Source of the DNA: Paraburkholderia phenazinium
Lineage (GTDB): Bacteria > Pseudomonadota > Gammaproteobacteria > Burkholderiales > Burkholderiaceae
Direction of reading: 5' to 3'
NCBI RefSeq assembly: GCF_900142845.1
Contig: NZ_FSRU01000001.1
Span: forward strand, 434,001-498,000
DNA length: 64,000 nt
A program made the translations under genes and the position numbers. Of the stretch, positions 3,254 through 33,323 are shown one piece after another. The notes below the pieces were generated by a model that worked only from the letters and a program-made list of their open reading frames with translations, was not told the origin of the DNA and searched no databases. Within the stretch, counting starts at the first letter, position 1; each line of letters begins with the position of its first letter.

Positions 3254-3962
3254 TCACACGAGCGTATAGGTCGCGATATCGCGAGAGGCAACGTCGGCAA
3301 GTGAACGGCGAGGAAGGCGCGCATGTCGGGAAAACAGAACTGGACTGGGTTGAAGGGAAATCGATAGAGGCGCTGCGCTGGACGGCCCTCGTCGTTTCAC
3401 AATATCGACGCTCAGGCCGTCGACTGATGGTCTTAAAGTCAATCGCAGGAGCGCTGGCGACGAATCCTGCGCGGTGGCGAGCGGCCTGACCATCACGAAA
3501 AGCGTTTCAGACGACTGCGCGGCCAGGTGCAGTCGTCTGAGTGATGACGCTTTCGCATACCCGGTCCAGAACACCACCGCGGCGCAACTGCCTGCGCGGA
3601 GAATCTGCTCAACCGACCACAACGCGTCTCCCGTCTTCGCCGCATCCACGCGAAACACCCGCTCGACAGGAAGGCCGATGTGGCGCAGCCCCCCAGTCCG
3701 TTGAGGGCATGGGGGGCTGCACAAATGCGACCGGACGGATACCGGCCTTGCAGAGCCCTGGCTGCAGCAACCGCAACTCACCCGTACCGGCTTGCTGGAC
3801 CAGCAGGTCGACCAGCGCCCCTACGGGCCATCCGCCGCCAGGCAGCTCCGCCGACAGCGCGGGATACCCCGTTTCCAGAAACCGCCCACGCCCGCGCGCG
3901 AGCTGGGACGCTCGCCACAGGGACGGGTGAATCTCCTCAGCGGGAACGGTAGCGGTGGACAT
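3254..3962 (-). pseudogene. imuA: imuA (SulA/RecA-like mutagenesis protein), frameshifted
   Basis: ImuA is the RecA-like partner of the ImuB/DnaE2 mutasome. The N-terminal part starts with MSTATVPAEEIHPSLW at 3962 and runs through ALVDLLVQQAGTGELRLL to FVQPP. The C-terminal part resumes as LRHIGLPVERVFRVDAAKTGDALWSVEQIL in another frame. Between them, 3690-3716, the third frame encodes the expected HALNGL linker, so there are two frame breaks, one in a C6 run and one in a G6 run; one extra base in each would restore the frame. This is either a true pseudogene or two homopolymer sequencing errors. The ATG at 3962 is preferred because the LexA box lies just upstream. imuB does not follow it. 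Confidence 0.8.
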
Positions 3963-3977
3963 GGGGAAGCAAAAAAA

Positions 3978-3993
3978 CTGTATATTTATACAG
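3978..3993. promoter_or_regulatory. LexA box (SOS operator)
   Basis: A perfect CTGT-N8-ACAG palindrome with an AT-rich centre lies 16 bases upstream of the imuA start codon. This matches the LexA consensus of Beta- and Gammaproteobacteria and is the expected control site of the imuA-imuB-dnaE2 cassette. It is also 56 bases upstream of the divergent gene at 4049, which could share the control. Confidence 0.88.
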
Positions 3994-4048
3994 TATCGTA
4001 CGCGCAATCTTGCGGTAGCGAACTGGCACTTTTAATCGGGGGCTGACT

Positions 4049-9730: not shown

Positions 9731-9972
9731 CACAACAGCCGACAATTCACTTGCCGCTTGTGTTCTCGACAAAATAAAGTGGAGAGGCGAGATGACGTTA
9801 GACATCGTCAAGGACAAAGTGGGCCAGCTTCCCGTCACCCGCCGGGTACGTGCTTGTCATCTGGTTCCTCGCTAAGTTTGTCGTCGCTCTCGCTGCACAT
9901 TACCCGCTCGCGTCCGAATTTTCTGTACGCCCATCATCGCAGTACATCTGCCGCGCGAAGAAGGTAAAGGCA

Positions 9973-12942
9973 CTACTCGCTTACCAACCAATAGGCATTC
10001 GCTGCGCCGCCTTGTCGTGCATAGTCGATGCCGAACACCATGAGGTCGACCAGGCGCTCATTGACCATGCCGCGTCGAATTCCTGGCTGCACACCGATGA
10101 CGATAAAGCTAAGCTTCGTCGCTAAGGTTTCTTCAAATAGTTGCCTGAGCATGCCGATGTTTCCGCGAAGAAACCGTGAGGGTGCCGCATAACGGCCGTT
10201 CATCCGGTCTTCCATATGCGTGAGTAGGATATGCGAGTCGCAGTAGAAGACCGATTTTACTAACTGCCCAGCCACTTCATAAACGTCACCAACTCTCCCT
10301 CCGCTCGGGGGGCCGCCGGCGCCCTTGCAGTGGTACAACGCAATTTTGACGTCTCCTTGCTGCTCGACACTTACAGCTATGTAGTCGGCAGCCTCGCCAG
10401 ACCGGTGGTCGTAAAAAAGCGCGATGACATCCGCTTGGCCCATCAGATGTTGCTCTAGGTGTTCTTGCACAGTCGCACGCCCAGCAAGTTGTGCCCTGCG
10501 CTCCTGCGCACGAGGAGTTCCGTCATCAACAAGAAACTCAATGGTCACATCACAACCATTCCAGTCAATTACTTCGGTGTCACCTTGCGCCAACGCACGG
10601 GTTTGAAGCTGCGGCGCTGCCATCAAATTCATACCTTCGAATGATGATTTGTCAGCTGCATAGAAAATTGGTGGGTGCTCCGACAACCATTCAGCGAGAG
10701 GCATCCAAGAGTCGACGGCCGACTCGATTTCCAATGTTGTCGCCTCGTCCAACTGCGAGACCATATTGCCCTGACCAACTGCGAAACTCATACGCACGCT
10801 GATATCTTCTGAAGTCACTGAGAACAGCAGTCGACCAGCGATGGGTTGCGGTTCGAATTCGCAGAACTCCCAGTCGGTAAGTCGTCGATAGACTAGTCTC
10901 GCGCCAGCACCACGGAGGCACCGCAGGCGGGGATTCGCCCTAAAGCCAGCCTTTGGCCACGTCCCCGCGATGACCGTTTCCGGAAGCTGCCGCAGAGTTG
11001 TAGCCGCACGTACCAGGTCCAGCTGTGTCGCCTCAAATGGGGTATTGCCCGTCAGCCGGGCGTCGAGCGTCTCCACCCAAGTTAAAAATTCCGCGACGGT
11101 CAGCCGCTGATTGCTCCAAATCCGAGAACTGCTGCTCGCCCCAATAGTCTCCTTGGAATCGCCAGCCATACCGCTTCCGAAGAAATGGCCTTGAGAGTAA
11201 GCGCGACCATCTCCTGCACTTACCGCTCGTTCTGCTGCAGGTCCCGTCAGGGTTCGATAGGTCTCCGCTTGCGAGTTAAACGTGTTGTTCTTCAGGCCGA
11301 CATTGTAGAACTTGACGGCTTGCAGTCCCGCGCGAGCGCGGCTAGTTTCTTCGTAACTAAGCGCTCGATGCGCTGCGGGACATGCCTTATTCATCAACCC
11401 GAGATATATCTTTTCCGTGCGTCGCGTCGAGCCTATGTAACACCGCTGCGTAGCCGGATAGTAGATAAAAAGGAATGCATCATGGCGAATGTTCGAGAGG
11501 GCATCTGACGTAGCCCAACTGGGTGGGTTCTCATCGGCGGTAAGCAGTAGGCTGACGGTTCCATCGTCCGACGACCATTGCTTCATCACTCGCACGTGAC
11601 GCGTGATGCGGTCACCGATTGCCTCGAAGTTGGGCGCTTGAGAACAGTGAAATACGCGTACATGGGCGTAAAGCTCCAACGCCAAAGGCGACACTGCGTC
11701 GTAGTCGGACTCTGCGATGCGCCGTACAGGAAGGCGTTCGAGTACAGCTTGCCCTTCCGCATCACCCGCCAGCTCGGCTGCGGCCGCTGCGTCAATCATT
11801 CTCGCAAGGTCAACGCCCTCTTTGAGGAGCGCGGTAGTCGCATTCTGGACTCGCGCTAGCGGGGCGATGAGAGTACCTCTGCCTGTCGCTCCATCAACAC
11901 GAGCAAATCTCCCAATGAACTGAATTGTGGGTACGAGCGAACGATGCGGTGCATGCAATGCAGCGATTTTTAGTTTGGGAAAGTCATAGCCTTCGCCGAA
12001 CATGTCAACACAGACAATTCCCTGGAGGTCTCCGCTAATCAAACGGCGTTCGCATTCGTCTTGTGTGCGTTTGCTAACTTTGCTGTCGATAGCCTCAACA
12101 TTGACCCCCATTCCTTTGTACAGCGGCACCAGCGCCCGCGCAGCACTGATGGTCGCCGCTCGCACAAATATGCGATGGTCGTAACCCGCATCAATATCGG
12201 ACCGAAGTTGCCGCACCGCGAGCTCCGCAATCACTCTATCCACGTGCTCGTCGTCGAGCGTGTCTTCGACCGGAGCCGCGAGGAAAGCGATTGGCTGAAA
12301 GGCACCTTCCTCAAGCGCTCTCATCACTGGATACCGATATGCCAGCTTGCCCGGAATGACTCGTTCATCCCGTCGAAACGGTGTCGCAGTTAAAAACACA
12401 AATCGAGCGGACCGGTAGTGGTCGAGAAATGCTGCCCACGTGTCTGCCGGCGCATGATGAGCTTCATCGAAAACGACCAGGTCGAAAAGGTGGGGTGCGG
12501 CACCAGGCGCAACCGCCGGCGATGAACTCGCGGGCGTAGATACCACTACGTCAAACTCCTCAAAGGCACGCCAGGCGTCAGCATTTTCGGGCTTGCCTTC
12601 CAACCGAAGCACAGCTGGATTCGGTGTCGCAGGGTCAATTACCTTGATACGTCGAAGCGTCGACAGCTCACGAAAGTGTGAAGAGACCTGCCGTCGAAGT
12701 GCATCAGAGGGCTCTACTACTAGGACGCGCTTTGCGCCGAGCAACATGGGAAGGGCCATCATCACGGACGTCTTACCGTATCCGGTGGGCAGACACACGA
12801 TAGCCGGGTCATCGTGAACCGAGATATGCGCAAGCACTGCGTGTAGCGCGCCGACCTGTCCAGGGCGGAATCCCTCGTTTGGAATCTCGCCTTGCACAAC
12901 CAATTTCAGCGCCCCGCGATTCTGCGAAAAGAAGTCCGCCAT
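9973..12942 (-). CDS. SF2 DEAH helicase with C-terminal nuclease-like domain
   Basis: A 989-residue superfamily 2 protein. Motif I GYGKT is at 54-58, DEAH at 159-162, motif III TATP at 185-188, and motif VI QFIGRFAR at 341-348. The central 400 residues are unassigned. The C-terminus carries DHRSGEAADYIAV (D845-D853), then IALYHCKGA (K873), followed by RVGDVYEVAGQLVKS; this order resembles an acidic-residue/...-x-K nuclease core, with H-C-K at the place of E-x-K. A translocating helicase-nuclease is inferred. It converges on the McrB/DUF2357 pair and may be part of the same defence locus or an independent one. The start ATG at 12942 gives a complete N-terminus before motif Q-like GFRPGQ. Confidence 0.8.
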   Translation of the reverse strand: MADFFSQNRGALKLVVQGEIPNEGFRPGQVGALHAVLAHISVHDDPAIVCLPTGYGKTSVMMALPMLLGAKRVLVVEPSDALRRQVSSHFRELSTLRRIKVIDPATPNPAVLRLEGKPENADAWRAFEEFDVVVSTPASSSPAVAPGAAPHLFDLVVFDEAHHAPADTWAAFLDHYRSARFVFLTATPFRRDERVIPGKLAYRYPVMRALEEGAFQPIAFLAAPVEDTLDDEHVDRVIAELAVRQLRSDIDAGYDHRIFVRAATISAARALVPLYKGMGVNVEAIDSKVSKRTQDECERRLISGDLQGIVCVDMFGEGYDFPKLKIAALHAPHRSLVPTIQFIGRFARVDGATGRGTLIAPLARVQNATTALLKEGVDLARMIDAAAAAELAGDAEGQAVLERLPVRRIAESDYDAVSPLALELYAHVRVFHCSQAPNFEAIGDRITRHVRVMKQWSSDDGTVSLLLTADENPPSWATSDALSNIRHDAFLFIYYPATQRCYIGSTRRTEKIYLGLMNKACPAAHRALSYEETSRARAGLQAVKFYNVGLKNNTFNSQAETYRTLTGPAAERAVSAGDGRAYSQGHFFGSGMAGDSKETIGASSSSRIWSNQRLTVAEFLTWVETLDARLTGNTPFEATQLDLVRAATTLRQLPETVIAGTWPKAGFRANPRLRCLRGAGARLVYRRLTDWEFCEFEPQPIAGRLLFSVTSEDISVRMSFAVGQGNMVSQLDEATTLEIESAVDSWMPLAEWLSEHPPIFYAADKSSFEGMNLMAAPQLQTRALAQGDTEVIDWNGCDVTIEFLVDDGTPRAQERRAQLAGRATVQEHLEQHLMGQADVIALFYDHRSGEAADYIAVSVEQQGDVKIALYHCKGAGGPPSGGRVGDVYEVAGQLVKSVFYCDSHILLTHMEDRMNGRYAAPSRFLRGNIGMLRQLFEETLATKLSFIVIGVQPGIRRGMVNERLVDLMVFGIDYARQGGAANAYWLVSE

Positions 12943-16278: not shown

Positions 16279-16524
16279 TTATTGAATGTCGATAGTTCGG
16301 CAGACTCTGCGTCGAATACCCGTTCCGGAGACGGGAGAGGACCTCGTTGCCACTGTTGAGCGGAGCGCAAGTTTTGTTCCGAACGCCTGAGCGATGCTTT
16401 CTAACCCGTCGCGGATGCTCTCTCTACGCAAGGCGGCTTCTGCGATGCTGTCAAACGCGGACTTGACCGTACCGGTAGCGGATGCGAGCACCACTTTTTC
16501 CACCAACGCGTATATACGTAGCAT
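16279..16524 (-). pseudogene. Coding-like fragment of unknown gene
   Basis: An 81-residue frame with helical, coding-like text (SAFDSIAEAALRRESIRDGLESIAQAFGTKL). Its first 16 codons lie in the duplicated DUF29 segment in another frame, so the start is probably artificial. It may be the 3' end of a gene cut by the rearrangement that brought the DUF29 copy here. No family recognised. Confidence 0.25.
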
Positions 16525-16831
16525 CGATGTTGAACGCCAAGGCCCTTAGGTCCACGTGACGAAGCTTCGAGGCGTTGGCTGGCAACCATCCCTCAGAAAG
16601 AACATAGTCGATTGGCCAAGGACATTCCGGTGGAAACCAATCTCGCCCACTATCGGTTGCCGCCTGAACGAGCGCGTCTACCCATATCAACTGGAACGTT
16701 TGGGGCTCATCAATCCTGGCGCGCAGGCTCGGAGAGTCGTCCAGAATTTCGGCAACCCCTATGCCTATCCAGCGGCCCGCCGTGACACCTTTTGTCATGT
16801 CCGAATTCAGGTCGCATGCGAAATGCATCAA
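16474..16831 (-). pseudogene. DUF29 fragment (second copy)
   Basis: Translation from about 16759 downwards gives GVAEILDDSPSLRARIDEP and ECPWPIDYVLSEGWLPANASKL, the C-terminal half of a DUF29 protein. It matches the gene at 26630-27409 over 286 bases (16474-16759 versus 26881-27166). The N-terminal half (MTAYDEDVSAWAFEQARFLRERRFD in the other copy) is missing, so this is a truncated copy. Confidence 0.75.
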
Positions 16832-18799: not shown

Positions 18800-19448
18800 A
18801 CGTGCCTCACTTGTCAGTAGTGAACGCACTATATTTGGAGCGCAGATTACCAGTGTGTTTGTGTGTAACGAGACGTGTGATTTGAAACACCTACCTCATC
18901 CCGGGTCTTCTCGGAATCCCGTCTGCAGCGAAATATTCGGTTTCAGAACTCACAACTCTTGGCCCGACATCGCGGGAGTCCAATGCGTCGAGGAGATGAA
19001 CGGCCATCCGCTGGACCAACGTCATTCGTCACCTCGACCTTCTTCGCTCGATGGGCCGTTCGAGTGTCCTAATAGTCTTCCTCCTGAAATCATGACACGG
19101 CGGACGTACTTGGGAACAGATGGCGATGGCACGGGCAACTCACTGTCCCGTCTCGCATTCGTGCGGAAGCCTCCGACTGGAAAGTCTGGGACAACCGACA
19201 GTCAAGAATCTCTTGGAACTGCGAAGGCCGCTATCGGCAGGCAGCTGGTGTGAGAGCGATTCGCAGGTCTGCGAAAAGCCAAACCCCCACGGCTTGTCGA
19301 GTTTTCCAAAGCTTCAAAGGGCGTAACGACATGCTGCAGTACAACCGACGCCGGGTCTGGTCCGCGACGTGGCCTTCATGTCGCTACTCCCCTTGACTTC
19401 CGATGCAAAAGCTCTATCACTGACGTGTGCTGCTATCGGACACTTCAC
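18800..19448. other. Intergenic stretch, no gene supported
   Basis: A long forward frame (18735-19253) lacks coding character and runs antisense through the small lipoprotein gene. Otherwise nothing is seen before the recombinase; att or promoter sites may lie here but are not recognisable. Confidence 0.5.
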
Positions 19449-21038
19449 ATGCGTTCTGCACCGCGTTGCAAAGCAAGTTCATCCGTGCCCATCAGGGCCG
19501 CGCAGTATATCCGCATGTCTACGGACCACCAGGAATATTCCTCCGTTTTTCAGAGACAGGCTATCGCAGCCTATGCGCTTGCCCATCACATCCGCATCGT
19601 CAGTATGTACGAAGACGCTGGCATAAGTGGTTTGACCTTGCGAGAGCGTCCGGCGCTCATCCAGTTGTTATTGGACGTTGATAACCCGAAGCGCAAATTC
19701 GCCACTGTGCTTGTGTACGACGTCAGCCGTTGGGGGAGATTTCAGGACGTGGACGAGGCCGCATTTTATGAATATGCCTGCAGACGCGCCGGAATCAACG
19801 TTGTATACGTCGCAGAGCCTTTTGAGAACGACGGAAGTCCAGCGACGTCGATATTGAAGGCGCTGAAACGTGCGATGGCCGCAGAGTTCAGTCGGGAAAT
19901 GTCACGCAAAGTTTTCCTGGGGCACTGCCTCAATGTCGAACGCGGCTTTCATACGGGTGGTCCACCGGGTTACGGATTACGCCGCATCCTTCTCGACGCA
20001 GACCGCAACGTCCGGCACTCCCTCGCCAGATATGAGTACAAAAGTATTCAGACCGACCGCGTTGTCATCGCCCCGGCGGTCAGTGGCGAAGCTGCGGTGG
20101 TTCGGAAAATCTATGAGTGGTACGCAACGCAGCCAATCTCGGCGGCCGCAATAGCAACGCGCTTAAATGATTTTGGGATTTGCAACGGCTCCGGGCGACC
20201 GTGGCAAGGGCAGAACATTCTGAACATCCTCCGCAACGAAATGTACATCGGTACCAATGTGTACAGTCGCACTACTTCCAAGTTGACCAGCCCGTGGGAA
20301 CGGGTTCCAACGCAGGAATGGATTCGTGTCCCCGGAGCGTTTGAGGCTGTCGTCGACAAACGCATCTTCACAGCCGTTCAGCAGAAAATGGAACGAGCCC
20401 GACGCAGACCCACGAGGGACGAGATTACCGACGGTCTGCACAAAATCATCAAACGAGTCGGCAAACTCAATCAGGCAACACTGAGACATTACCGTGGCGC
20501 GCCTTCCGTCGAGCAGATAATGCGCGAGTTTGGAAGCCTGAACGAGGCATACAAGGCTATAGGCTACGCACCGAATCTGGACCCAGCCCGCTCGGAAAAC
20601 CGCTGTGTCGAACGCCGCATGGAGAAGCGGGTCGCCGAAGTGACCATCGACGTCTTGCGGAATCTTGGCCACGAGGTGCGGTACGAAAAGCACACAAATA
20701 CCATGTGTGTCGACGGCTCGTTAAGGCTGAATCTTGTTGTGCGCAGTCCGTGGCTTATCGGCGGCAGCGTCCCCTACTGGGTCGCGCGCTGGCCGGACTG
20801 TTTCCCCGTAGATTTTCTTGTATATGGGCGCATAGAGCGCGCGAATACGGAGCTGCTCGACTTTCACATCTTCCCGCGTGGAAGCCTCGTTCCGGGGGCA
20901 TACACGGTAATCCACCGGCACGGCCAGACACATTTCAAAGCGTATCTGCATCCAAACCTGACACCCCTGCTTGACATCGCTGAGAACGTACCCCTTGAGG
21001 TGTTGGGAAGCACGGTGTCCTGCGGGAGAGTCTCTTGA
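19449..21038 (+). CDS. Large serine recombinase (module A)
   Basis: About 529 residues from the ATG at 19449 (19425 also possible). The resolvase catalytic domain starts with AAQYIRMSTDHQEYS, where S is the nucleophile, followed by YEDAGISGLTLRERPAL and VLVYDVSRWGRFQDVDE. The recombinase domain follows (GFHTGGPPGYGLRR, AIATRLNDFGICNGSGRPW, ILNILRNEMYIGTNVYSR). The C-terminal 170 residues contain an HNH-repeat-like helix pair (MREFGSLNEAYKAIGYAP) and a conserved tail FHIFPRGSLVPG that recurs in the recombinase at 22696. No zinc ribbon is seen. The stop overlaps the next gene (TGATG), so it heads a three-gene operon. Confidence 0.85.
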   Translation: MRSAPRCKASSSVPIRAAQYIRMSTDHQEYSSVFQRQAIAAYALAHHIRIVSMYEDAGISGLTLRERPALIQLLLDVDNPKRKFATVLVYDVSRWGRFQDVDEAAFYEYACRRAGINVVYVAEPFENDGSPATSILKALKRAMAAEFSREMSRKVFLGHCLNVERGFHTGGPPGYGLRRILLDADRNVRHSLARYEYKSIQTDRVVIAPAVSGEAAVVRKIYEWYATQPISAAAIATRLNDFGICNGSGRPWQGQNILNILRNEMYIGTNVYSRTTSKLTSPWERVPTQEWIRVPGAFEAVVDKRIFTAVQQKMERARRRPTRDEITDGLHKIIKRVGKLNQATLRHYRGAPSVEQIMREFGSLNEAYKAIGYAPNLDPARSENRCVERRMEKRVAEVTIDVLRNLGHEVRYEKHTNTMCVDGSLRLNLVVRSPWLIGGSVPYWVARWPDCFPVDFLVYGRIERANTELLDFHIFPRGSLVPGAYTVIHRHGQTHFKAYLHPNLTPLLDIAENVPLEVLGSTVSCGRVS

Positions 21039-21373
21039 TGCGCCCGCGTCGACCAGGCATCGGTTCCTCCGGAATTGAGCCAAACCTGCGCCGGCAAGAT
21101 GGCGCGTCAAAACCAGCAGAGCGCCAACCTGAACCTCGTCGTGCCAGTGGAAGAGCGACTGCAGAGGGAAAGGCCAAAAAAGTTCTCAAGCTCGAGCGTG
21201 CGCGTCAGCGGACTGCAATCAGGCATATGCGGGCGATGCAGTGCGAGATGGCTCTGACGACGAAGGTCCTGCTGAAGCTGCTTTCAGACCCAGCCTTCGT
21301 TGCGCTACTACGTGCCGAGGGGTTCACCTCGATACCGAAGCTCGTTCGTCAGCGGCTCGTGGAGCGGCGTTGA
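21038..21373 (+). CDS. RepB C-terminal-domain-only protein (module A, gene 2)
   Basis: A 111-residue protein in TGATG overlap with the recombinase. The basic, low-complexity N-terminus leads into LTTKVLLKLLSDPAFVALLRAEGFTSIPKLVRQRL. This aligns with the end of the 303-residue ParB/RepB protein of module B (FIVHALRQLMREEGFIGLLEREGLTTLPRVLDQRI). The ParB-like N-terminal domain is absent. The reading frame is intact and tightly coupled at both ends, suggesting a functional short form rather than decay. Confidence 0.6.
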   Translation: MRPRRPGIGSSGIEPNLRRQDGASKPAERQPEPRRASGRATAEGKAKKVLKLERARQRTAIRHMRAMQCEMALTTKVLLKLLSDPAFVALLRAEGFTSIPKLVRQRLVERR

Positions 21374-21993
21374 TGACGAAAGCTCGACCTGCGAGATTCA
21401 TACGTCGTTCAAAGGCTCCGCCCGGGTGCGAAAGACCGCCAGAAATTTGTGCGGAAGCGTTCGCGCTGTTCGTCGGGGAAACGCTTCCCAAACGGACAGT
21501 CGCAGCGCTTGCGAGGATGGTTCCGGCGCGTCAGGTTACATCTGCCCGGACTATGGTCGCAGTGGACAACCTCAGCGGAAATTTCGCTCGAGCCCTATTG
21601 GCAGCGACGCCATCAAGTAAGAGGGGCGATGATGCTCGGGGGCGGCAGTCTCACCCCGATTCAGCACGCCGACTGGCCAGGATGGAACAGGGGCTCATTC
21701 AGATGCAACTCGAGGCGGCAGAACTGCGTTCGCACTACGACGATGACCTGTTTCATTTGGCGCTTGCAGCCTGTTACGTGCGGGGTTGGATGCGGAACGA
21801 AGTGGTGACAACCTGGCTCCACTCGCGCCATCCGGAGTCTGCCGCCGTGCTTGACCGCCTGGCGAAGGCGGCGGACTTCGCAATTGAGCCAAGGCGCCCA
21901 ATGAAACTTCCGTACTCGCCGGCTGCTAGTCCTGCAGCACCTCACAAGAATAAATCAGGTAGGCGCCCGACAGCAGGTGCCCAAGCCCGTTAG
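21373..21993 (+). CDS. RepB-type C-terminal-domain protein (module A, gene 3)
   Basis: A 206-residue protein that starts at ATG 21373 in TGATG overlap with gene 2. Segment PPEICAEAFALFVGETLPKRTVAALARMVPARQV...FARALLAATP aligns with the second ParB/RepB protein of module B (GICREAATLLADKACPATTFNTLKRMRPLRQL...FARAIVAATP). Both share the ensuing coiled-coil and a WLxxRHP tail. The N-terminal ParB-like domain of the longer homologue is missing. Role unknown; probably acts with the recombinase. Confidence 0.65.
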   Translation: MTKARPARFIRRSKAPPGCERPPEICAEAFALFVGETLPKRTVAALARMVPARQVTSARTMVAVDNLSGNFARALLAATPSSKRGDDARGRQSHPDSARRLARMEQGLIQMQLEAAELRSHYDDDLFHLALAACYVRGWMRNEVVTTWLHSRHPESAAVLDRLAKAADFAIEPRRPMKLPYSPAASPAAPHKNKSGRRPTAGAQAR

Positions 21994-21995
21994 AA

Positions 21996-22352
21996 CTACC
22001 GCGTACCAACAAGATAGGTCAGGCAGTGCTGGTAGATGGTCCGCGCTGTTTCCGAACGGAAGTCCAGCCTCAGGTTCTCGCAAAACAGCGTGCAAATCAT
22101 CTGTCTCGAAAAGACAGGCAATGGTTCCGTCTCCAACTGTCGAGCTAGTTCCAAGGCCCGACTCGACAGCATGACCCGCTCGAGAATATCGGCGTTCCCA
22201 CCGTTTGTGTTTAACCATAAGGTCGTGGACTCCACGACGTGACCGTGCGAGAGCCATTCGCCGGTTAGTTGTTTTGCCAGCAAATGCGACGAAACAAGAT
22301 AGGCAAGCAGTTCGGCGCGTGCCCGAAGGTCAAGGTTGAGTGGATTCGTCAC
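21996..22352 (-). CDS. Hypothetical protein convergent to module A
   Basis: A 118-residue ORF with GTG start, rich in helices (LRARAELLAYLVSSHLLAKQLTGEWLSHGHVVESTTLWLNTNG). It ends two bases from the stop codon of the module A gene 3. Text looks coding, with no family recognised. Confidence 0.45.
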   Translation of the reverse strand: MTNPLNLDLRARAELLAYLVSSHLLAKQLTGEWLSHGHVVESTTLWLNTNGGNADILERVMLSSRALELARQLETEPLPVFSRQMICTLFCENLRLDFRSETARTIYQHCLTYLVGTR

Positions 22353-22695
22353 GCTTTAGCGCATTCAATAGGCTCAGTGGGAATGATACATCCGGACACG
22401 AGAGGAGCACGTTATGTCGCGGAAGCGCGCGGAGTTCGCGAATCATGTTCGCGTTTTTTCACTCCGCACGCTCTCAACCGTCCAGCCGAGCTCAACTTCA
22501 TGTCTGTAACCACATACGCGGCAGGCACATTAGGGGCATAACCGACGCGTGAATTCTCTTTTCTAGTTCACTTGGAGCACCGGTGGGCCACGCGGTTGGG
22601 ACCCTAACTGAAACGCTGGGGCGCTGACATCTATCGTCCTTGACTTGGGCGAACATCGAGCTATCACTAATTACCGCGCCAGACGGGAGACGGAA
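22353..22695. other. Intergenic between recombinase modules
   Basis: No gene is supported. It presumably holds the promoters of module B and the convergent gene's upstream region; no clear repeat or att core was recognised. Confidence 0.5.
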
Positions 22696-24318
22696 ATGCC
22701 GCAAGCGGATGGAATATTGACCTCCCTTGCTGGCAGGCTCGCAGCGCAGTATGTGCGGATGTCCACGGACTACCAGCAGTACTCAACCGAAAACCAGAAG
22801 CTGGCCATCGCTGAGTTCGCCGCAATGCAGGGAATATCCATCATCGCTACCTATGAAGACGCAGGAAAAAGCGGTGTGACACTCAAAGGCAGACCTGGTC
22901 TGCTCCAGCTACTTCAGGATGCACAGGCTCCTACACATGCCTTCAGCCTGGTGCTTGTGTACGACGTCAGTCGTTGGGGCCGCTTTCAGGACGTCGATGA
23001 GAGCGCCCACTACGAATACCTGTGCCGGCAGGCCGGCGTACAGGTGGTGTATTGCGCAGAAATCTTCTCACACGACGGCGGCGCTGTGGCGACGTTGATG
23101 AAAACGCTCAAGCGTGCGATGGCCGGGGAATACAGTCGTGAGCTATCCCAAAAGGTTTTCATCGGCCAGTACAAACTTGCTGAGCGAGGTTTTTGGCAAG
23201 GTGCGGCTCCAGGATATGGCCTGCAACGCGTACTGGTTGACTCGGACGGGAATATCAAAGGTCCTCTGCGTCATCGGGAGCACAAAAGCATCCAGACAGA
23301 CAGAGTAATCGTGACGCCCGGTGACGAACGCGAAGTGGCGCTCGTTCGTCGCATCTATGATTGGTACGTTAGTCAGGGAGTTGGGTGCAGACGGATTGCG
23401 GACAGGCTAAACGCGTTCGGGATGTGCAATGCATATGGTCGACCGTGGAATCCACAGAACATTACCGGCATTCTGAGCGGCGAAAAATATGCCGGGACCA
23501 ATCTCTACGCTAGGACATCCAAGAAGCTCGATGCCAACTGGCATAGGAATCCCCCATCCGAGTGGGCTCGTTCAGAGGGCGCGTTTCCTCCTGTCGTTGA
23601 CCACGCGACGTTCGATGCAGCTGAGAGAATCCGGACGAACCGAACACAAAACCTCAGCGACGACGAGATTCTGAAAAGACTGGGTGACTTCGTGCGCTCT
23701 GCGGACGTTGTCAGCGTCAAGGAAATCGACAATGCCCGGACACTACCAGCAGGAAAGACCTACTCCGTACGATTCGGCTGCATCAAGAACGCGTACGCAC
23801 TAGTCGGATACGAGCCAAGCTATCACATGGGAGGACCTGAAGTCTTTCGGGCGTCACGAGCCGCCCAGCAGGAGTGCATTGGAAAGACTACCTCTGCACT
23901 TACGGCTCTTGGCCATCGCGTGGACATTTCCGCGGACGAAACTACCATTCGGGTAGATGATGAACTGGTTATCAGATTCGCTGTGCGCCCGATTCTTCAC
24001 TATGACCGCCGTGGCCCGCGCTGGAGAGTGCGCTGGCCAACCTACTCGTCGCCCGACCTTTTGGTCGTCTTGAGGTTGGACTCCGCGTTTGAGACTCCAA
24101 TCGATTTTTATATTTTTCCCCGAGGCAGTTTGGTGCCCGGTTACGATTTCTCGCTGTCAATCCGCAGCGGCAGTAGCGAACCTTTCGAAATGTTCCGGTT
24201 TTCCGATGAGAGGATTCTGTTTGAACTGACAGCGCGGACTCGCATGGAGGCACTCGATGGAAGCCAATCCCCTCATTCCAATCTCAGATATCCAGATTCG
24301 CCAGATTCGAGTGCTTAA
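22696..24318 (+). CDS. Large serine recombinase (module B)
   Basis: A 540-residue protein from ATG 22696, chosen for GGGAGACGGAA upstream. The catalytic domain begins AAQYVRMSTDYQQYSTENQ, with S as nucleophile, then YEDAGKSGVTLKGRPGL and LVYDVSRWGRFQDVDE. The recombinase domain follows (GFWQGAAPGYGLQR, ITGILSGEKYAGTNLYAR). The C-terminus resembles that of module A (FYIFPRGSLVPGYDFS). The two recombinases are clear paralogues, not recent copies. Gene 2 starts inside its 3' end with a 62-base overlap. Substrate sites are unknown. Confidence 0.88.
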   Translation: MPQADGILTSLAGRLAAQYVRMSTDYQQYSTENQKLAIAEFAAMQGISIIATYEDAGKSGVTLKGRPGLLQLLQDAQAPTHAFSLVLVYDVSRWGRFQDVDESAHYEYLCRQAGVQVVYCAEIFSHDGGAVATLMKTLKRAMAGEYSRELSQKVFIGQYKLAERGFWQGAAPGYGLQRVLVDSDGNIKGPLRHREHKSIQTDRVIVTPGDEREVALVRRIYDWYVSQGVGCRRIADRLNAFGMCNAYGRPWNPQNITGILSGEKYAGTNLYARTSKKLDANWHRNPPSEWARSEGAFPPVVDHATFDAAERIRTNRTQNLSDDEILKRLGDFVRSADVVSVKEIDNARTLPAGKTYSVRFGCIKNAYALVGYEPSYHMGGPEVFRASRAAQQECIGKTTSALTALGHRVDISADETTIRVDDELVIRFAVRPILHYDRRGPRWRVRWPTYSSPDLLVVLRLDSAFETPIDFYIFPRGSLVPGYDFSLSIRSGSSEPFEMFRFSDERILFELTARTRMEALDGSQSPHSNLRYPDSPDSSA

Positions 24319-25168
24319 TCCCCGGACCCGCAGCAGGCGTCAAAAGCAGGCACTGGTCGACAGCATCGCGGCGGTGGGATTGAAGAAGCCGATAACCGTA
24401 AGCCATCGGGCGTGCTCCGGCGATACGGCTGTGTTTGACCTGGTTTGCGGTCAGGGACGACTCGAGGCTGTTCAGGCTCTCGGCCATGACACCATTCCCG
24501 CGCACGTCATCGACAGCGCTGAAGATGAGTGTCTCGTTAAAAGCCTCGTCGAAAATATCGCGAGACGGAACCATTCCACCATGGAATTACTTAAGGACAT
24601 TCAAAGCCTCAGTACGTTCGGGTACACGGACAATCTCATTGCAGACAAGGTAGGCTTGTCTGTCGCATATATGGGAAGCCTGATGTTTCTCCTTGACCGT
24701 GGGGAAGAGCGGCTTATAACAGCCGTTGAGTCCGGGAGCATCCCCATAGCTATCGCCATGCAAATCGCGCGCACCGATGACACAGAGGTGCAATCTGCAC
24801 TGGTTGATGCTTACGAAGACGGCACGTTGAAAGGGCGACAGCTTTCCGTCGTCCGTAAGCTGCTTGTCCGTCGCAGCAGGTCAGGAGGAAAGTTGCTGCC
24901 TGCTTTTAAGGGACCCGGCGCTCCTCGGGCCCGTGAACTGGCTCCGGAGCAGCTACGTCGTCTGTATGTGCGGGAAAGTGACAGGCAAAGGGTGCTTGCA
25001 AAGAAAGTCGAGGTGACTCACGCGCAGTTGCTGTTCATCGTTCATGCCCTGCGTCAGTTGATGCGCGAAGAAGGCTTCATCGGCCTTCTCGAACGGGAGG
25101 GACTCACGACACTTCCTCGCGTGCTCGACCAGCGAATAAGGGCGGAGGCACAACCATGGTCCAGTTAA
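24257..25168 (+). CDS. ParB-like/RepB-like protein (module B, gene 2)
   Basis: A 303-residue protein that starts inside the recombinase gene. A ParB-type N-terminal domain is seen at about 8-110 (KQALVDSIAAVGLKKPITV, CGQGRLEAVQALGHDTIPA, LVENIARRNHST), with an HTH (NLIADKVGLSVAYM) near 130-150, and a RepB plasmid-partition-type C-terminus (LLFIVHALRQLMREEGF...LLEREGLTTLP). ParB proteins bind DNA and CTP; here, linked to a recombinase, it may act as an accessory or segregation factor. No ParA gene is present nearby. Confidence 0.75.
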   Translation: MEANPLIPISDIQIRQIRVLNPRTRSRRQKQALVDSIAAVGLKKPITVSHRACSGDTAVFDLVCGQGRLEAVQALGHDTIPAHVIDSAEDECLVKSLVENIARRNHSTMELLKDIQSLSTFGYTDNLIADKVGLSVAYMGSLMFLLDRGEERLITAVESGSIPIAIAMQIARTDDTEVQSALVDAYEDGTLKGRQLSVVRKLLVRRSRSGGKLLPAFKGPGAPRARELAPEQLRRLYVRESDRQRVLAKKVEVTHAQLLFIVHALRQLMREEGFIGLLEREGLTTLPRVLDQRIRAEAQPWSS

Positions 25169-26130
25169 CAGGACAGCCCCTCAGGGCCGCATTTGAGCGC
25201 CAGCCGATAATGCTACAGCTGGATGCGTTGGTTTCATCACGGCCGCTGCCTCACAATGTCATATCGAGCAAGAAGTTCCTGCAGATTCTGGCTTCCATCT
25301 CTACTGTTGGTCTTGTCGAACCAGTGATTGTGGCGCGCATCGCAGATGACGAAAGCAAGTTCCGGATTCTCGATGGTCGGTTGCGGGTGGAAGCTGTTCG
25401 TCGCCTGAGTTCCACAGAGGTCTTGTGTCTTGTCGCGACCGATGATGAGGCGTACACGTACAACAAGCATATAAGCCGGCTGACACCGGCACAGGACGCA
25501 CGCATGATTGCCAAAGCAATCGAACGTGGCGTTCCAAGGGAGCGGATTGCCCTGGTACTGGGAATCGACATCGGTACTGTCAAGCGCCGGGCGGAACTGC
25601 TGGACGGGATATGTCGCGAGGCGGCGACCCTGCTGGCAGACAAAGCCTGTCCAGCGACGACTTTCAATACATTGAAGCGAATGAGGCCGCTGCGGCAGTT
25701 GCAAGCAGTGGAGCTTATGTGCGGTCAGGGAAATTTCACTTCGGCTTTCGCGCGTGCCATTGTGGCAGCGACTCCGCCGGAGCAACTCGAAGAGAATCAA
25801 GGCACACGAAAGAAATCGGAAAACGAGGTCATGACGCAGCTCGCCAAACTCGAACGGGAACTGGCTACGCTCCAAGCCACGGTGGCTCAAACTGATGAGA
25901 GATACGGTATAGAGCACCTACATCTCACGGTCTCTGTTGCGTACGTGGCAACGCTTGTGAACAATGAGCACGTGTCTCGCTGGCTGAATGAACGGCATCC
26001 CGATTTTGCTGCCCAGTTCGAGACTATTAGCAAGGACGCGCGTGACGCCCGTTCTGCGTCGAACTCAAACGTCTCAAGGTCCAAGAACTTCCGGCACGTT
26101 GGCGGAGAGACTGCTCAACCGCCTCGATAA
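25156..26130 (+). CDS. ParB-like/RepB-like protein (module B, gene 3)
   Basis: A 324-residue protein overlapping gene 2 by 13 bases. The ParB-like N-terminal part has KKFLQILASISTVGLVEPVIV and FRILDGRLRVEAVRRL. An HTH-like segment RERIALVLGIDIGTVKRRAELL follows, and the RepB-like C-terminus (AIVAATPPEQL, then coiled coil LAKLERELATLQATV, and WLNERHP) aligns with module A gene 3. The two ParB-like genes of the module are divergent paralogues and could form heteromers. Confidence 0.75.
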   Translation: MVQLTGQPLRAAFERQPIMLQLDALVSSRPLPHNVISSKKFLQILASISTVGLVEPVIVARIADDESKFRILDGRLRVEAVRRLSSTEVLCLVATDDEAYTYNKHISRLTPAQDARMIAKAIERGVPRERIALVLGIDIGTVKRRAELLDGICREAATLLADKACPATTFNTLKRMRPLRQLQAVELMCGQGNFTSAFARAIVAATPPEQLEENQGTRKKSENEVMTQLAKLERELATLQATVAQTDERYGIEHLHLTVSVAYVATLVNNEHVSRWLNERHPDFAAQFETISKDARDARSASNSNVSRSKNFRHVGGETAQPPR

Positions 26131-26257
26131 ACTGGTTTGCACAGAAGGTGAACTCGATGCGCGATTCAATCATGCGCTGGCAGTTACCCGGGGGCTGAGC
26201 GTGACGCGGTCGCGCACGCGTGAATTTTCGACTTTCATCTGATTGATTTTTAGTCGG

Positions 26258-26560
26258 TCACCGGAACACGCGGTTCCATAACGCGGTGACGACCGCCGCT
26301 ACAATCGTTTTGAGAGAGAGTTCACGGTAGGTATCTAGGGAGTTGATTGGCGGAGACTCCCGAGCGGGTAAGCCCCGGAGGGCCCGAACTTTGCGGTGCA
26401 ACCACGCCGAGCGTGCTGCGCGAGCGAATGCCCTCTCGGCCTCTTGCGGCAGGTCCGTGATAATGTCAAATTCCCGGCCGTCGATGTATCCCGACAACGA
26501 ATATCCCGAGGCCCGCTGCGTCATCCACCCCACATAGCCCCATGCAAAGACTTGGGTCAC
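26258..26560 (-). CDS. Small protein with C-terminal hydrophobic helix
   Basis: A 100-residue ORF with GTG start, overlapping the upstream stop (GTGA). It has AERAFARAARSAWLHRKVRALRGL and ends with the possible membrane helix LKTIVAAVVTALWNRVFR. The coupling supports coding. No family recognised. Confidence 0.45.
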   Translation of the reverse strand: MTQVFAWGYVGWMTQRASGYSLSGYIDGREFDIITDLPQEAERAFARAARSAWLHRKVRALRGLPARESPPINSLDTYRELSLKTIVAAVVTALWNRVFR

Positions 26561-26784
26561 TTCGCCTCCTTCGTCGATATCGCAAGTTTCACGATGAGTT
26601 GATATTCTGTATTGGAGCGGATTGGCCCATCAGCGCTGATTGTCCCAGATACAAAAGACAGTACTTGCCGGACGACGCTTGACCAATCCTCGGGTGTGTT
26701 TCGGTGCTCGTGCGCGACGGACCTTCGCTTTGACCAAACGTCCGAGCGTCCCAGATGGTATGGTGAGAATCGTATCCACCACAT
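26557..26784 (-). CDS. Hypothetical ORF, 5' end uncertain
   Basis: The last 50 codons (TPEDWSSVVRQVLSFVSGTISADG, IVKLAISTKEAK) look coding, and the stop is coupled to the next gene. The 5' half overlaps the extended DUF29 frame; a frame change near 26710 could link the two. Boundaries are therefore uncertain. Confidence 0.3.
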   Translation of the reverse strand: MWWIRFSPYHLGRSDVWSKRRSVAHEHRNTPEDWSSVVRQVLSFVSGTISADGPIRSNTEYQLIVKLAISTKEAK

Positions 26785-27409
26785 CGGGCGCGAGCATGCA
26801 AATCATCAGTGCCATACGCGAAATTATCGCCCCCGCTTTATCGTTAAGGCATTTGGTGGGTCGCCCAACATTAATTCGGTGGTAGCGGATGCGAGCACCA
26901 CTTTTTCCGCCAACGCGTATATACGTAGCGTCCATGTTGAACGCCAGGACCCTCAGGTCCACGTGGAGAAGCTTCGAGGCGTTGGCTGGCAACCAGCTCT
27001 CGGAAAGAACATCGTTGATTGCCCAAGGACATTCCGATGGGAACGAATCGTGTTCGTTTTCAGTCGTCGCCTGAGCGAGTGCGTCTGCCCATATAAACTG
27101 GAACGTTCGGGGCTCATCAATCCGCGCACGCAGACTCGGAGAGTCGTCCAGAATTTCGGCAACTCCTAACCGTCGAGCCTCAATCATTGCCGAACGACTG
27201 CCAGTGCGCTCATCTGGCAAGTAGTGCCACACAAGCAAATAGGCAAGCAGAACCGACACCTGTTTAGTGAACTCACGCAGTTCCGCCTTAGCGACATCGT
27301 CAATCTCGTCGGCAACGTGCTCGGTGTCCAGCCGGTCGAAACGACGTTCCCGCAGAAATCGGGCTTGTTCAAATGCCCACGCGCTTACATCCTCGTCATA
27401 GGCTGTCAT
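26630..27409 (-). CDS. DUF29 family protein with atypical C-terminal extension
   Basis: From ATG 27409 (AAGGAG five bases upstream) a 259-residue frame begins MTAYDEDVSAWAFEQARFLRERRFD and continues with VADEIDDVAKAELREF, LVWHYLPDERTGSRS and VLSESWLPANA, the full DUF29 domain of about 150 residues. The remaining 110 residues are not part of the family and become basic and low in coding quality, so the natural stop may be lost. DUF29 function is unknown; it is common on mobile elements. The start overlaps a 17-codon ORF (ATGA). A truncated copy lies at 16474. Confidence 0.7.
   Translation of the reverse strand: MTAYDEDVSAWAFEQARFLRERRFDRLDTEHVADEIDDVAKAELREFTKQVSVLLAYLLVWHYLPDERTGSRSAMIEARRLGVAEILDDSPSLRARIDEPRTFQFIWADALAQATTENEHDSFPSECPWAINDVLSESWLPANASKLLHVDLRVLAFNMDATYIRVGGKSGARIRYHRINVGRPTKCLNDKAGAIISRMALMICMLAPDVVDTILTIPSGTLGRLVKAKVRRARAPKHTRGLVKRRPASTVFCIWDNQR
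26881..27166 (-). repeat. Dispersed repeat inside DUF29 (286 bp)
   Basis: This segment matches 16474-16759 over its whole length at high similarity and in the same orientation. Both copies begin (plus strand) with GGTAGCGGATGCGAGCACCA. It ends at codon G of GVAEILDD. Confidence 0.75.
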
Positions 27410-27459
27410 CTGAACTCCTTGGTAGAAATCACCCGTGCGCCGCAAGTGACGAAAGTCAT
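27406..27459 (-). CDS. 17-residue linker ORF
   Basis: MTFVTCGARVISTKEFR lies between the 43-residue membrane gene and DUF29, overlapping both by ATGA. It may only serve translational coupling or carry the AAGGAG of the DUF29 gene. Coding is uncertain. Confidence 0.3.
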   Translation of the reverse strand: MTFVTCGARVISTKEFR

Positions 27460-27587
27460 TTCCGGATGATTGAGACCACAAAAATGAAGCCAACTATCAG
27501 TCCGAGCACGAGAGCTATCCGGCCGACCCACTCGACCACGAAATCGACATTCTTCTGTGACTCAGCGAAGCGAAACAGCCATTTCAT
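27456..27587 (-). CDS. 43-residue membrane protein (family member 1)
   Basis: A short gene starting MKWLFRFAESQKNVDFVVEW, with one transmembrane helix IALVLGLIVGFIFVVSIIRK. GAGGAAAG precedes the ATG. A same-length paralogue lies at 28215-28346, and a related C-terminus occurs at 13212. The first residues, MKWLxRFAxSQKN, are conserved. Function unknown; the context is a cluster of small island genes. Confidence 0.65.
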   Translation of the reverse strand: MKWLFRFAESQKNVDFVVEWVGRIALVLGLIVGFIFVVSIIRK

Positions 27588-30351: not shown

Positions 30352-31682
30352 GTGACCAAACTCAAGTCGCAGGTGACCCTGGGTGACGCCAACACCACGG
30401 GCGACGTGTTCGACAGCGTGGCGTTCCGTGGTGTGCAGATCGCCACCGACGACCGCATGCTGCCCGAATCGTTGCGCGGTTACGCGCCGGTTGTGCGGGG
30501 CACTGCGCAATCGAACGCGCGGGTGACGATCCGGCAAAACGGTCAGGTGATCTATGAAACGAACGTGTCTCCAGGCCCGTTCGAAATCAAGGACCTGTAT
30601 GCCACGGGATACGGCGGCAACCTCGACGTGACGGTGACCGAAGCCGACGGCCGCACCGAAAACTTTACGGTGCCCTACGCTTCGGTCGCACAATCGCTGC
30701 GCCCCGGTACCACGCGTTTTTCGGTGACGGCGGGGCAGTTGCGCGACGATTCCCTCCAAACGAAACCGGCCTTCGCGCAGTTCACGCTGCAACGCGGCCT
30801 CACCAACACGGTGACGGCTTACGGCGGCGGCGTGGCGGCGAACGGCTATGTGGCGGCGGATATCGGCGCTGCGCTCAACACGAAGTACGGCGCATTTTCC
30901 GCCGACGTGACCGGCGCACAGACGCAAGTACCCGGGCAGGAGTCGATGCGCGGCACCAGCTTGCGCATTGGCTATAGCAAGTTCATCGACCCGACCGATA
31001 CCAACATCTCGGTAGCCGCTTACCGTTACTCGACCGCCGGTTTCCTGAGTCTGTCCGACGCGGCATCTGTGCGCGACGAGGCGATGCATGCCGGCGACAT
31101 CAACTCGGTGTATCGCCAGCGTAACCGGCTGCAACTGACGGTGAATCAGAACTTCAAGGATCACGGCACGGTGTTCCTGAGCGCATCGTCGCAACAGTAC
31201 TGGAACCGTAGTGGCAGCGACACGTTCTACCAGGCCGGCTACACCAACAGTTTCAAGTTCGGCACCTACAGCGTCACAGCGGGGCGCACGCGCAACTCGG
31301 ACGGCGATATGTCGGACCAGTTCATGGTTAGCGCGACGATTCCGCTCGGCCACAACCAGCATGCACCTTTGCTGTCGACCAATCTGTCCAGCACCGCCGG
31401 CGCTGCGAATATGCAAGCCAACCTGAGCGGATCGCTGGGCGATAGCAACCAGTACTCGTACAACGCTTACGGCACTTATAACGCCGCCAGCACGGGTAGT
31501 GCTTCGAACGCGGGTGTGAGCGGCGTGTATCGCGCGCCATATGCGCAGATGACGGCGTCGGCCAGCGCGGGTTCCGGTTCGAACCAGGTGTCGGCTGGCA
31601 TTAGCGGGTCCGTGGTCGCGCATCCGGGCGGTGTGACGTTCTCGCAGACGGTGGGCGATACGTTCGGCGTCGTCGATGCGCA
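30352..31682 (+). pseudogene. Fimbrial usher, 5'-truncated, part 1
   Basis: An outer-membrane usher of the chaperone-usher pathway. The remaining frame begins KLKSQVTLGDANTTGDVFDSVAFRGVQIATDD, a mid-barrel usher segment, and includes MLPESLRGYAPVVRG and the plug-domain region. A stop lies in frame at 30337, and the first ~220 residues are gone. The 3' end is cut by IS66; removing the IS and one target duplication restores the frame to part 2. Confidence 0.88.
31675..31682. repeat. Left 8-bp target-site duplication of the IS66 element
   Basis: GATGCGCA lies just before the left terminus and is repeated at 34184-34191. An 8-bp duplication is typical of IS66 transposition. Confidence 0.9.
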
Positions 31683-31754
31683 GTAAGCGGCTCACGTGGG
31701 CCGTTCGTCCACGCGCGTGCACGTGAGGCATGATGGTGATCCGGACTTGGACTG

Positions 31755-33323
31755 TCAGGTAGCGGGTGTCGGCGGACTGGCTGGCGTGTGCAGCTTGTCG
31801 GCCACGCGCCACGGCAGAAGCTCGTCGATGCGATTGATTTTATGGTCAGCGATGTGAGCTAGCACATAGTTCAGGTAAGCGCGCGGATCAATGTCGTTGA
31901 GGGCGCACGTGCCAATCAATGAGTACATCGCAGCAGCACGTTCACCACCGCTGTCGGAACCGGCAAACAGGAAATTCTTCCGACCCAGGCTTACACAACG
32001 CAACGCGTTTTCCGCGATGTTATTGTCGATCTCGAGCGTGCCGTCTTCGCAATATAGCGTCAGGGCGCGCCACTGGTTAAGCGAGTAGTTGATCGCCTTG
32101 GCAGTGTCGGACTTCGACGACAATGTTTCGAGCCTGGCCTTGAGCCACGCTTCATAGATTTGAAGCAGTGGCCTGGCTTTCTCCTGCCGTATTTGTAGCC
32201 GTTCGGCCGCAGGCTTGCCGCGAATGGAGGCCTCGATGTCGTATAGCGCGCCAATGTATTCAAGCGCTTTTTGCGTCGTGTCGGACGGCGTGCGCACGTG
32301 GATGTCGTAGAACTTTCTCCTCGCGTGAGCATGACATGCCGCTTCCAGTACAGAGCCACCCAGGAACAGCTCATCGAAGCCCGCGTAAGCGTCCGCTTGC
32401 AGGGTCCCCCTGAAGCCGGCGAGATGAGTCTGAGGGTGGATGCCCTGTCTGTTCGGCGAGTATGCGAACCATACCGCAGCGGGTTGCGTCGACCCCGAGC
32501 GACGATCGTCGCGCACATAGACCCATAGCCGACCGGTGCGGGTCTTCCTGTTGCCCGGTGAGAGCACCGGGATCGGTGTGTCGTCCGCATGCAGCTTGGC
32601 GGCCGACACCGTATAGCGGCGCAGCGCCTCAATCAGCGGCGCGCACAACGCTTCGCATTGGCCGACCCAGCGACCCATGCTGGCCCGGTCGAGCGTCACG
32701 CCGTCGCGCGCCGCGATCGCCGATTGCCGATACAACGGCTGGTGGTCTGCGTATTTCGAAACGAGGATATCCGCCAGCAAGCTTGGATGGGCGATGCTCC
32801 GCTCGATCGGAAGGCCGGGCATGGGTGGCTGCCTGATGGTGCTGCAGCATGGGCAAACGAATTTGCGCCGGATCGTGCGAACGACTTTGAACGCCGCTGC
32901 GACCCGGGCGAGTTGCTCGGACACGTCCTCACCGAGCACCTGCATCTGTTGACCGCAGTCCGGGCAACTCGATTCGGGCTCGAGCACATGATCCACACGC
33001 GCGAGGTGCGCAGCCAGCGCTTGCCTCGAAGCCGCTTCGTCCATCGTTGCATTGGAGGAGGAAGCGTTTGCGCCTCGAGCTTGCGCTCGCTCCACGTCTG
33101 CAACGCCGCGTCCGGCGGCCAGATCCTCGAGTTGGGTCTCGAGGGTCTCGATCTGCCGCTGCAACTGTTCGGACTTGCGGCCGAACTGCATGCGTCGAAG
33201 TTTGTCGATCTGCGCCTTAAGCTGCTCGATCTCGACATCGCGTTCAGCAAGCAGACTACGGGCCTCGACCAGCAAGGCCTTCAACAATTCGACATCGTCT
33301 GGAAGATCGGCGCCGTTCGACAT
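31755..33323 (-). CDS. tnpC: IS66 transposase TnpC (DDE)
   Basis: A 522-residue IS66 transposase: coiled-coil N-terminus ([30 protein letters not shown]), zinc finger ([15 protein letters not shown]), then the DDE core with [24 protein letters not shown] and an E in [15 protein letters not shown], which is the typical IS66 C-terminal motif. Full length. Confidence 0.95.

Follow-up and report, generated by a model that had tools for sequence, protein, structure and literature searches.

What is the gene for a large serine recombinase doing in one operon with the genes for two ParB-family proteins? This question is raised by a 64,000-nucleotide stretch of Paraburkholderia phenazinium DNA (contig NZ_FSRU01000001.1, positions 434,001 to 498,000; hereafter the window), for which an initial annotation had described such a gene trio, proposing that the ParB-like proteins perhaps act as accessory or directionality factors of the recombinase or segregate an excised element. 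We found that the trio belongs to a real, conserved and mobile module, which by its architecture is a new variant of large serine recombinases: the three genes are conserved as a unit, overlap or abut each other and are under selection, and units that are nearly identical are found at places whose surroundings are unrelated. As an explanation of the whole we lean, if only slightly, towards a self-mobile recombination unit in which both ParB-like proteins are obligate partners of the recombinase. Throughout, recB and recA denote the recombinases of units B and A, RB1, RB2, RB1A and RB2A their partners, and numbers preceded by G and L genomes and loci, respectively.

A recombinase and two ParB-family proteins

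The trio described initially, trio B, comprises the following features:

22640..22667, + strand: promoter-like box TTGACT-16-TATCAC of recB, kept in relatives
22696..24318, + strand: recB, large serine recombinase, 540 amino acids (Pfam; structural model with a mean pLDDT of 78.9)
24257..25168, + strand: RB1, ParB_N and RepB domains, 303 amino acids (Pfam; Spo0J, Noc and ParB chains matched by sequence)
25156..26130, + strand: RB2, RepB domain and weak ParB_N, 324 amino acids, 48-residue C-terminal helix in the model (Pfam; structural model)

The overlaps are exactly as first reported, with recB and RB1 sharing 62 bases (RB1 starts at 24257, recB ends at 24318) and RB1 and RB2 sharing 13 (RB2 starts at 25156, RB1 ends at 25168). 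The start of recB at 22696 is preferred over the first TTG at 22645, as this TTG lies inside the −35 element of the conserved promoter-like box, which ends 29 bases before 22696. The same box with the same spacing precedes the upstream paralogue recA.

To define the distribution of the trio we searched genome contigs with an RB2 alignment, which gave at least 589 stretches, 541 of them confirmed, and analysed the best 80, so that all loci are anchored on RB2. A script found recombinase, RB1 and RB2 in a row at 66 of the 80 loci; six of the remaining 14 hold all three genes in split, over-long or edge-cut frames, resulting in 72 loci with the genes in this order and bearing out the co-occurrence of the homologues. 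The eight exceptions are five loci cut by a contig end, a fragmentary one (L217) and two without a recombinase (L147, L154). Likewise, 27 of 37 viral contigs were scored as trio, one more (L236) also holds all three genes, and nine are cut by contig ends. The commonest distances in the 93 scored trios are −4 (39 trios) and −1 (19 trios) between recombinase and RB1 and −4 (54 trios) between RB1 and RB2; since starts were assigned mechanically, long overlaps are partly artefacts. At one locus (L057) no RB gene was found beside a recombinase that is 35% alike. The trio is widespread, and of 398 Pseudomonadota genomes searched at E 1e-20, 31 encode a relative of RB2, the present genome among them; at least four of the 31 match in the C-terminal half only. 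Some part of 19300-26300 is matched by 77 of 144 genomes of the genus; this number is a maximum, as the final 100 bases of the query recur alone in at least two genomes (G007, G030).

The genes are usually annotated as 'recombinase family protein' and 'plasmid partitioning protein RepB C-terminal domain-containing protein'. No publication describing the trio was found in the full-text literature, whose coverage excludes most subscription papers and all preprints; one report names the 'methylase/ParB' of phage WO as one gene, not as a recombinase partner (PMC9203015). A 13-kb record labelled as Lactiplantibacillus plantarum plasmid (L059, NZ_CP110863.1) encodes RB1 and RB2 fused in a 594-amino-acid frame adjoining a recombinase; the trio is of the proteobacterial type, and the record is perhaps a contaminant.

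The assignment of recB as serine recombinase is confirmed by Pfam (Resolvase, E 1.5e-21; Recombinase, E 9e-19), and both domains (PF00239 and PF07508) are present in all 40 recombinases compared, with S23, R21, R93 and R96 invariant in the alignment. Residues 7-357 of the recB model match structures of large serine recombinases, namely the SPbeta, Bxb1 and phiC31 integrases, and residues 381-518 at the C-terminus match the homing endonuclease I-Ssp6803I (2ost). When the C-terminus was compared with solved structures by sequence, nothing better than E 0.76 was obtained; absence from Foldseek or VIA results was not taken as evidence that a part has no known fold. None of the 40 recombinases contains a zinc-ribbon family at E 0.01, and no coiled coil like that of large serine recombinases is seen in the recB model (one model, pLDDT 78.9, pTM 0.47). 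An assignment as phage integrase of the usual type was rejected, since only one of the 121 phage records with a match to the recombinase matches over more than 80% of the query.

The two partners share the RepB domain (PF07506), found in 41 of 41 RB1 and 39 of 39 RB2 relatives, but differ in ParB_N, which is present in all 41 RB1 relatives vs 6 of 39 RB2 relatives at E 0.001. Both had been described initially as having ParB-type N-terminal motifs, helix-turn-helix (HTH) motifs and RepB-type C-termini. The motifs CGQGRLEA in RB1 and DGRLRVEA in RB2 are as claimed, and their cores, GQGRLEA and GRLRVEA, are largely invariant in the alignments. Profile searches recovered ParB_N (E 1.9e-9) and RepB (E 3.5e-18) in RB1 and RepB in RB2 (E 4.3e-38), the ParB_N of RB2 being weak (E 7.9e-5; 23.1 bits, under the Pfam cut-off of 26.3). 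Profile support for the HTHs is weak as well: HTH_ParB scores 17 bits in RB1 vs a cut-off of 22.6 and is present in 6 of 41 RB1 relatives, and the RB2 model has three helices at 111-148, which by our own reading occupy the position of the ParB HTH. This model (pLDDT 80.7) combines a ParB/Noc/KorB-like fold with the long C-terminal helix; the C-terminus of RB1 is helical, too, as judged by similarity and our own reading. The partition_RepB model of NCBIfam (TIGR03454) gave 28.8 and 17 bits, not reaching its cut-off of 201.5. GERRxR, which we take to be the CTP-binding motif, was not found in RB1 or RB2, both of which have GxxRxEA instead; RB1 retains E99, N100 and R103. Finally, the reported lack of ParA holds, as KGG[VTI]GK[TS], presumably the ParA-type Walker A motif, does not occur in any open reading frame (ORF) of at least 100 codons in the window, and no ParA adjoining the trio is named in the annotated loci examined.

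A paralogous trio with short partners

A second trio (19449-21993), missing from the initial annotation, lies directly upstream of trio B and is part of unit A:

19386..22390, + strand: unit A (recA, RB1A, RB2A and small gene), block common to G158 and G086, with homology edges in L102 and L103
19393..19420, + strand: promoter-like box (TTGACT-16-TATCAC) preceding recA, situated at the left end of unit A; CTTGACTT is invariant in nine aligned loci
19449..21038, + strand: recA, paralogous large serine recombinase; start taken from the conserved leader, the ORF opening at 19425
21035..21373, + strand: RB1A, 112 amino acids, only the C-terminal part of RB1 (RB1 profile positions 209-295)
21373..21993, + strand: RB2A, corresponding to the C-terminal part of RB2 and lacking ParB_N and HTH region (RB2 profile 153-301, 96.5 bits); the start is uncertain, 21331 being also possible
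21996..22352, − strand: small gene, 118 amino acids, with homologues in the units of G152 and G085 (41-43% identity)

Pfam identifies Recombinase (E 1.6e-22) and Resolvase (E 7.1e-17) in recA (calculated for 19512-21038), and the small gene matches no NCBIfam family at E 0.1. The sequence 5' of the recA box is not conserved among the nine aligned loci. An RB1A of 103-128 amino acids occupies the same place at 17 loci, which come from 16 Paraburkholderia genomes and include that of the window; at two of them (L041, L109) the recombinase is broken or truncated. Comparison of the window with two relatives gave ratios of nonsynonymous to synonymous substitution rates (dN/dS) of 0.12-0.37 for all six trio genes, indicating purifying selection (recA 0.12-0.13, RB1A 0.30-0.37, RB2A 0.19). 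The recurrence of the short form together with these ratios led us to reject decay of the upstream trio, and implies the maintenance of a system in which the partners of the recombinase have neither ParB_N nor HTH region. The two trios stand in tandem in the window, L034, L102, L103 and L111, and in reversed order in L105 and L106.

The short partners bear on two other explanations of the trio. RB1 and RB2 might be ParB-type repressors, KorB- or Noc-like, that silence the recombinase operon and take no part in recombination, consistent with their match to ParB, Noc and KorB folds and with the conserved promoter-like box 5' of both recombinases. Repression alone, however, leaves partners without an HTH unexplained, although RB1A and RB2A are conserved and under selection. 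Moreover, all five alphaproteobacterial units compared already hold a divergent gene 5' of the recombinase; these genes are homologous and by our own reading encode HTH-type regulators (DeoR family in one record). We thus judge repression as sole function to be unlikely. The second explanation, the partition or stabilisation of an excised circle, is suggested by the RepB domain, which is common to plasmid partition proteins, but it does not account for the lack of ParA. The units contain no replication gene, their hosts include a chromosome-sized contig and a plasmid with its own repABC, and the conserved, selected paralogous trio does without ParB_N and HTH region, all of which makes a role in segregation very improbable. 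Of the two roles proposed initially, that of accessory factors is the one that fits best, and a function as directionality factors is a possible form of it.

Units in different surroundings and a 19-bp plasmid site

Unit B can be delimited in the window by comparison with other genomes of the genus:

22495..26157, + strand: unit B, block common to G149 (only B present) and, give or take some tens of bases, to G158 and G086
22501..22519, + strand: left-end sequence TGTCTGTAACCACATACGC of unit B, present in 6 of 144 genomes, in one of them twice and thus at 7 places, with at most one mismatch

All seven places are the left end of a B unit, the reversed control gave no match, and more than one base deviates from TGTCTGTAACCACATACGC in the B units of G149 and G067. 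Three cases of near-identical units in different surroundings indicate that the unit moves. In G085 two replicons share a block of 6.65 kb with 95.7% identity between unrelated flanks; it comprises a B trio, the small gene, an A-type recombinase and a single partner. G152 contains a 3.5-kb A-type unit twice, with 91.6% identity. A 3.9-kb unit comprising regulator, recombinase, RB1 and RB2 is 96.9% identical between the Agrobacterium plasmids pAt C58 and pAt1D1460, where it has different surroundings.

Comparison of the flanks, which had been suggested as a way to att cores, did not pinpoint the site of crossover in the Paraburkholderia units. Searches for empty sites matched repeated sequences in 109 of 144 genomes for the L106 flank, the genome itself and short pieces in ten others for the L108 flank, and a gene present in 142 of 144 genomes for the L107 flank. 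We rejected tRNA genes as general target, as ARAGORN found them in just 8 of 60 and 3 of 40 loci and none in the window; a few of them lie within about 1 kb of the trio. In Sphingobium the unit ends on its right at the same boundary as a replacement cassette (nhaA), close to a 75-bp sequence of which CAP-1 has two copies; this may reflect homologous recombination and was not used as evidence on mechanism. Ten units of Rhodobacteraceae have a common right border at a hairpin, which was rejected as unit end since the left border fades, and is probably a terminator.

Unrelated modules on plasmids of Agrobacterium and Rhizobium, namely toxin-antitoxin (TA), AbiEii, RidA and trio modules, have breakpoints coinciding with the 19-bp sequence CYTTGANNGGRATYGAACC or a close variant, at these positions:

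L056: 6619 and 10501
L068: 5005 and 8887
L069: 8920
L070: 8926 and 9815
L269: 5004 and 5892
L270: 4004
L271: 4005
L272: 4227

In C58 and 1D1460 the site flanks the trio unit on both sides, and in two plasmids it brackets a VapC-type TA cassette; the RidA module has it at the left end in three plasmids and the AbiEii module at the right end in five, with five different continuations. In a third plasmid with the VapC-type cassette the homology ends at these two points as well, and one copy of the site is recognisable. A Fic module is perhaps also bounded by the site. Across 12 plasmids the pattern occurs 33 times with at most one mismatch vs none for the reversed control; ten of the 12 carry it, seven in more than one copy, with all copies co-oriented in five of these seven. 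Within 50 kb of pAt C58 there are two matches with at most three mismatches (1.7 expected), both at the unit ends. The window has no excess at this threshold (11 matches vs 15.7 expected), and at most one mismatch reveals no site at the unit in three plasmids with another trio subfamily. One of these three, from Aminobacter, has a copy with two mismatches (L058:6689) at the left border of the unit; it shares this border with the copies of L220 and L221, all from one subfamily, which is a weak hint. The reversed CYTTGANNGGRATYGAACC contains GGTTCRATYCC, which we take to resemble the T-arm of a tRNA, but ARAGORN detected no tRNA in the Agrobacterium site-bearing loci. The modules look like an integron-like cassette system, for which the C58-type trio is a candidate enzyme or, equally, a passenger, and this side finding may matter more than the trio itself.

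If a passenger, the trio would be a passive cassette moved by another recombinase at CYTTGANNGGRATYGAACC, its own work being unrelated to its position. The coinciding breakpoints of the four kinds of module are compatible with this, as is the presence of the site on seven of seven examined plasmids without an RB2 relative (which were chosen via site-bearing sequences). In C58 and 1D1460, however, the recombinase of the trio is the only recombinase gene within the 3.9-kb unit, and the Paraburkholderia units have moved although the window shows no excess of the site. We therefore give this explanation little credence.

Several genes around the trios are of note. The assignment to Paraburkholderia agrees with named proteins of up to 90% identity. 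Both trios lie in a low-G+C block of the window (0.56 vs 0.61-0.64 outside), and the two trios have on each side an ORF with a nearly identical stretch (GVAEILDDSPSLRARIDEP...; 16451-16831 and 26630-27493, − strand), the longer of which presumably encodes a DUF29-type protein. The same block contains at 5592-12942 a gene pair, which we take to be McrB/McrC-like, and a 989-amino-acid helicase, similar to type IV restriction enzymes according to PADLOC. At its right edge an ORF apparently lacking its N-terminal part (30352-33323; a fimbrial usher, we assume) is followed by what should be an IS66-type transposase. At 3254-4007 a gene that we take to be ImuA-like is split between two frames beside a presumed dnaE2, and no ORF that we would recognise as ImuB-like was seen between them. 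In Agrobacterium, genes for TniQ, TniB and a Mu-type transposase are convergent to RB2 at a distance of about 15 bases (L066:10907-14492, L067:10906-14485), and DUF1403 and ScpB genes lie upstream of regulator and trio (L067:5080-6746); ScpB partners SMC, which ParB loads.

Proposed roles of the partners and relation to known systems

We propose that a small self-mobile recombination unit is built around each trio, and that the serine recombinase cuts and rejoins the ends of the unit. RB1 and RB2 would be its obligate partners, probably forming a mixed pair via their C-terminal helices, and might hold the two recombinase-bound ends together and choose which joints react. ParB-type proteins load on DNA as clamps and bridge DNA; in type B the ParB-like N-termini may add DNA binding and perhaps nucleotide gating, and type A would have just the protein-contact part left. 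RB1 and RB2 would in this way supply in trans the control of synapsis or direction that phage integrases have in cis. Two reports assign the coiled coil of phage integrases a role in direction control (PMC10754689, PMC5814800). As no coiled coil is seen in the recombinase, both partners end helical and the short paralogues keep just these parts, control in trans by RB1 and RB2 is the simplest reading.

A number of observations weigh against such a self-mobile unit with obligate partners. No direct repeat was apparent by eye where the G085 and G152 copies end, no attB/attP pair was established for any unit, and empty-site searches for these copies yielded nothing usable. The recombinase is broken or truncated in 2 of the 17 A-type loci (L041, L109), the A-type units of G017 and G085 have no separate RB1A frame, and the absence of a coiled coil was read from a single predicted model with its pTM of 0.47. 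Finally, trio borders are not enriched in CYTTGANNGGRATYGAACC across 101 loci (2 in 160 kb vs 19 in 1,359 kb elsewhere, at most three mismatches), which, together with the site on the plasmids without an RB2 relative, implies that another enzyme may act there.

A more far-reaching version, which we regard as rather doubtful, would see a three-protein serine recombinase as a new class of mobile unit: the control of synapsis and direction, which phage integrases have built in as a coiled coil, would lie with a mixed ParB-family pair loading on DNA as nucleotide-gated clamps, a reduced version would work through contact domains only, and the Rhizobiaceae unit would be part of integron-like TA/defence cassette arrays with the 19-bp site. 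Partnership with a recombinase would put the ParB clamp to a new use, provide a case from nature of trans control over a large serine recombinase, and account for a common gene trio for which no description was found. A version that is naturally split and gated by partners would also be of practical value, given the wide use of serine integrases as tools.

Among known systems, integron cassette arrays resemble the Agrobacterium plasmid modules in that a short site delimits modules with TA or defence-like genes; the trio unit differs in that its only recombinase, a candidate for the enzyme acting at the site, is of the serine instead of the tyrosine type, and in a site of 19 bp. With the CcrA, CcrB and CcrC recombinases of SCCmec the trios share two different adjoining recombinases, and Ccr models are the best NCBIfam matches of recA and recB, but the CcrB model scores only 63.8 bits for recB and 49.1 for recA vs a cut-off of 900, and we know of no ParB-like partners of the SCCmec recombinases. 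RepB of repABC plasmids and the ParB, Noc and KorB proteins have in common with RB1 and RB2 the RepB domain, the ParB_N of RB1 and the fold; the trio proteins, however, lack a ParA, have GxxRxEA in place of what we take to be GERRxRA, are encoded with a recombinase and exist in short versions. Like the large serine integrases of phiC31, Bxb1 and SPbeta (YokA) and like TnpX, the trio recombinase combines Resolvase catalytic and Recombinase domains, but no zinc ribbon was found in it, it shows no coiled coil in the model, and it instead possesses an I-Ssp6803I-like C-terminal domain and two ParB-like partners encoded in the same operon.

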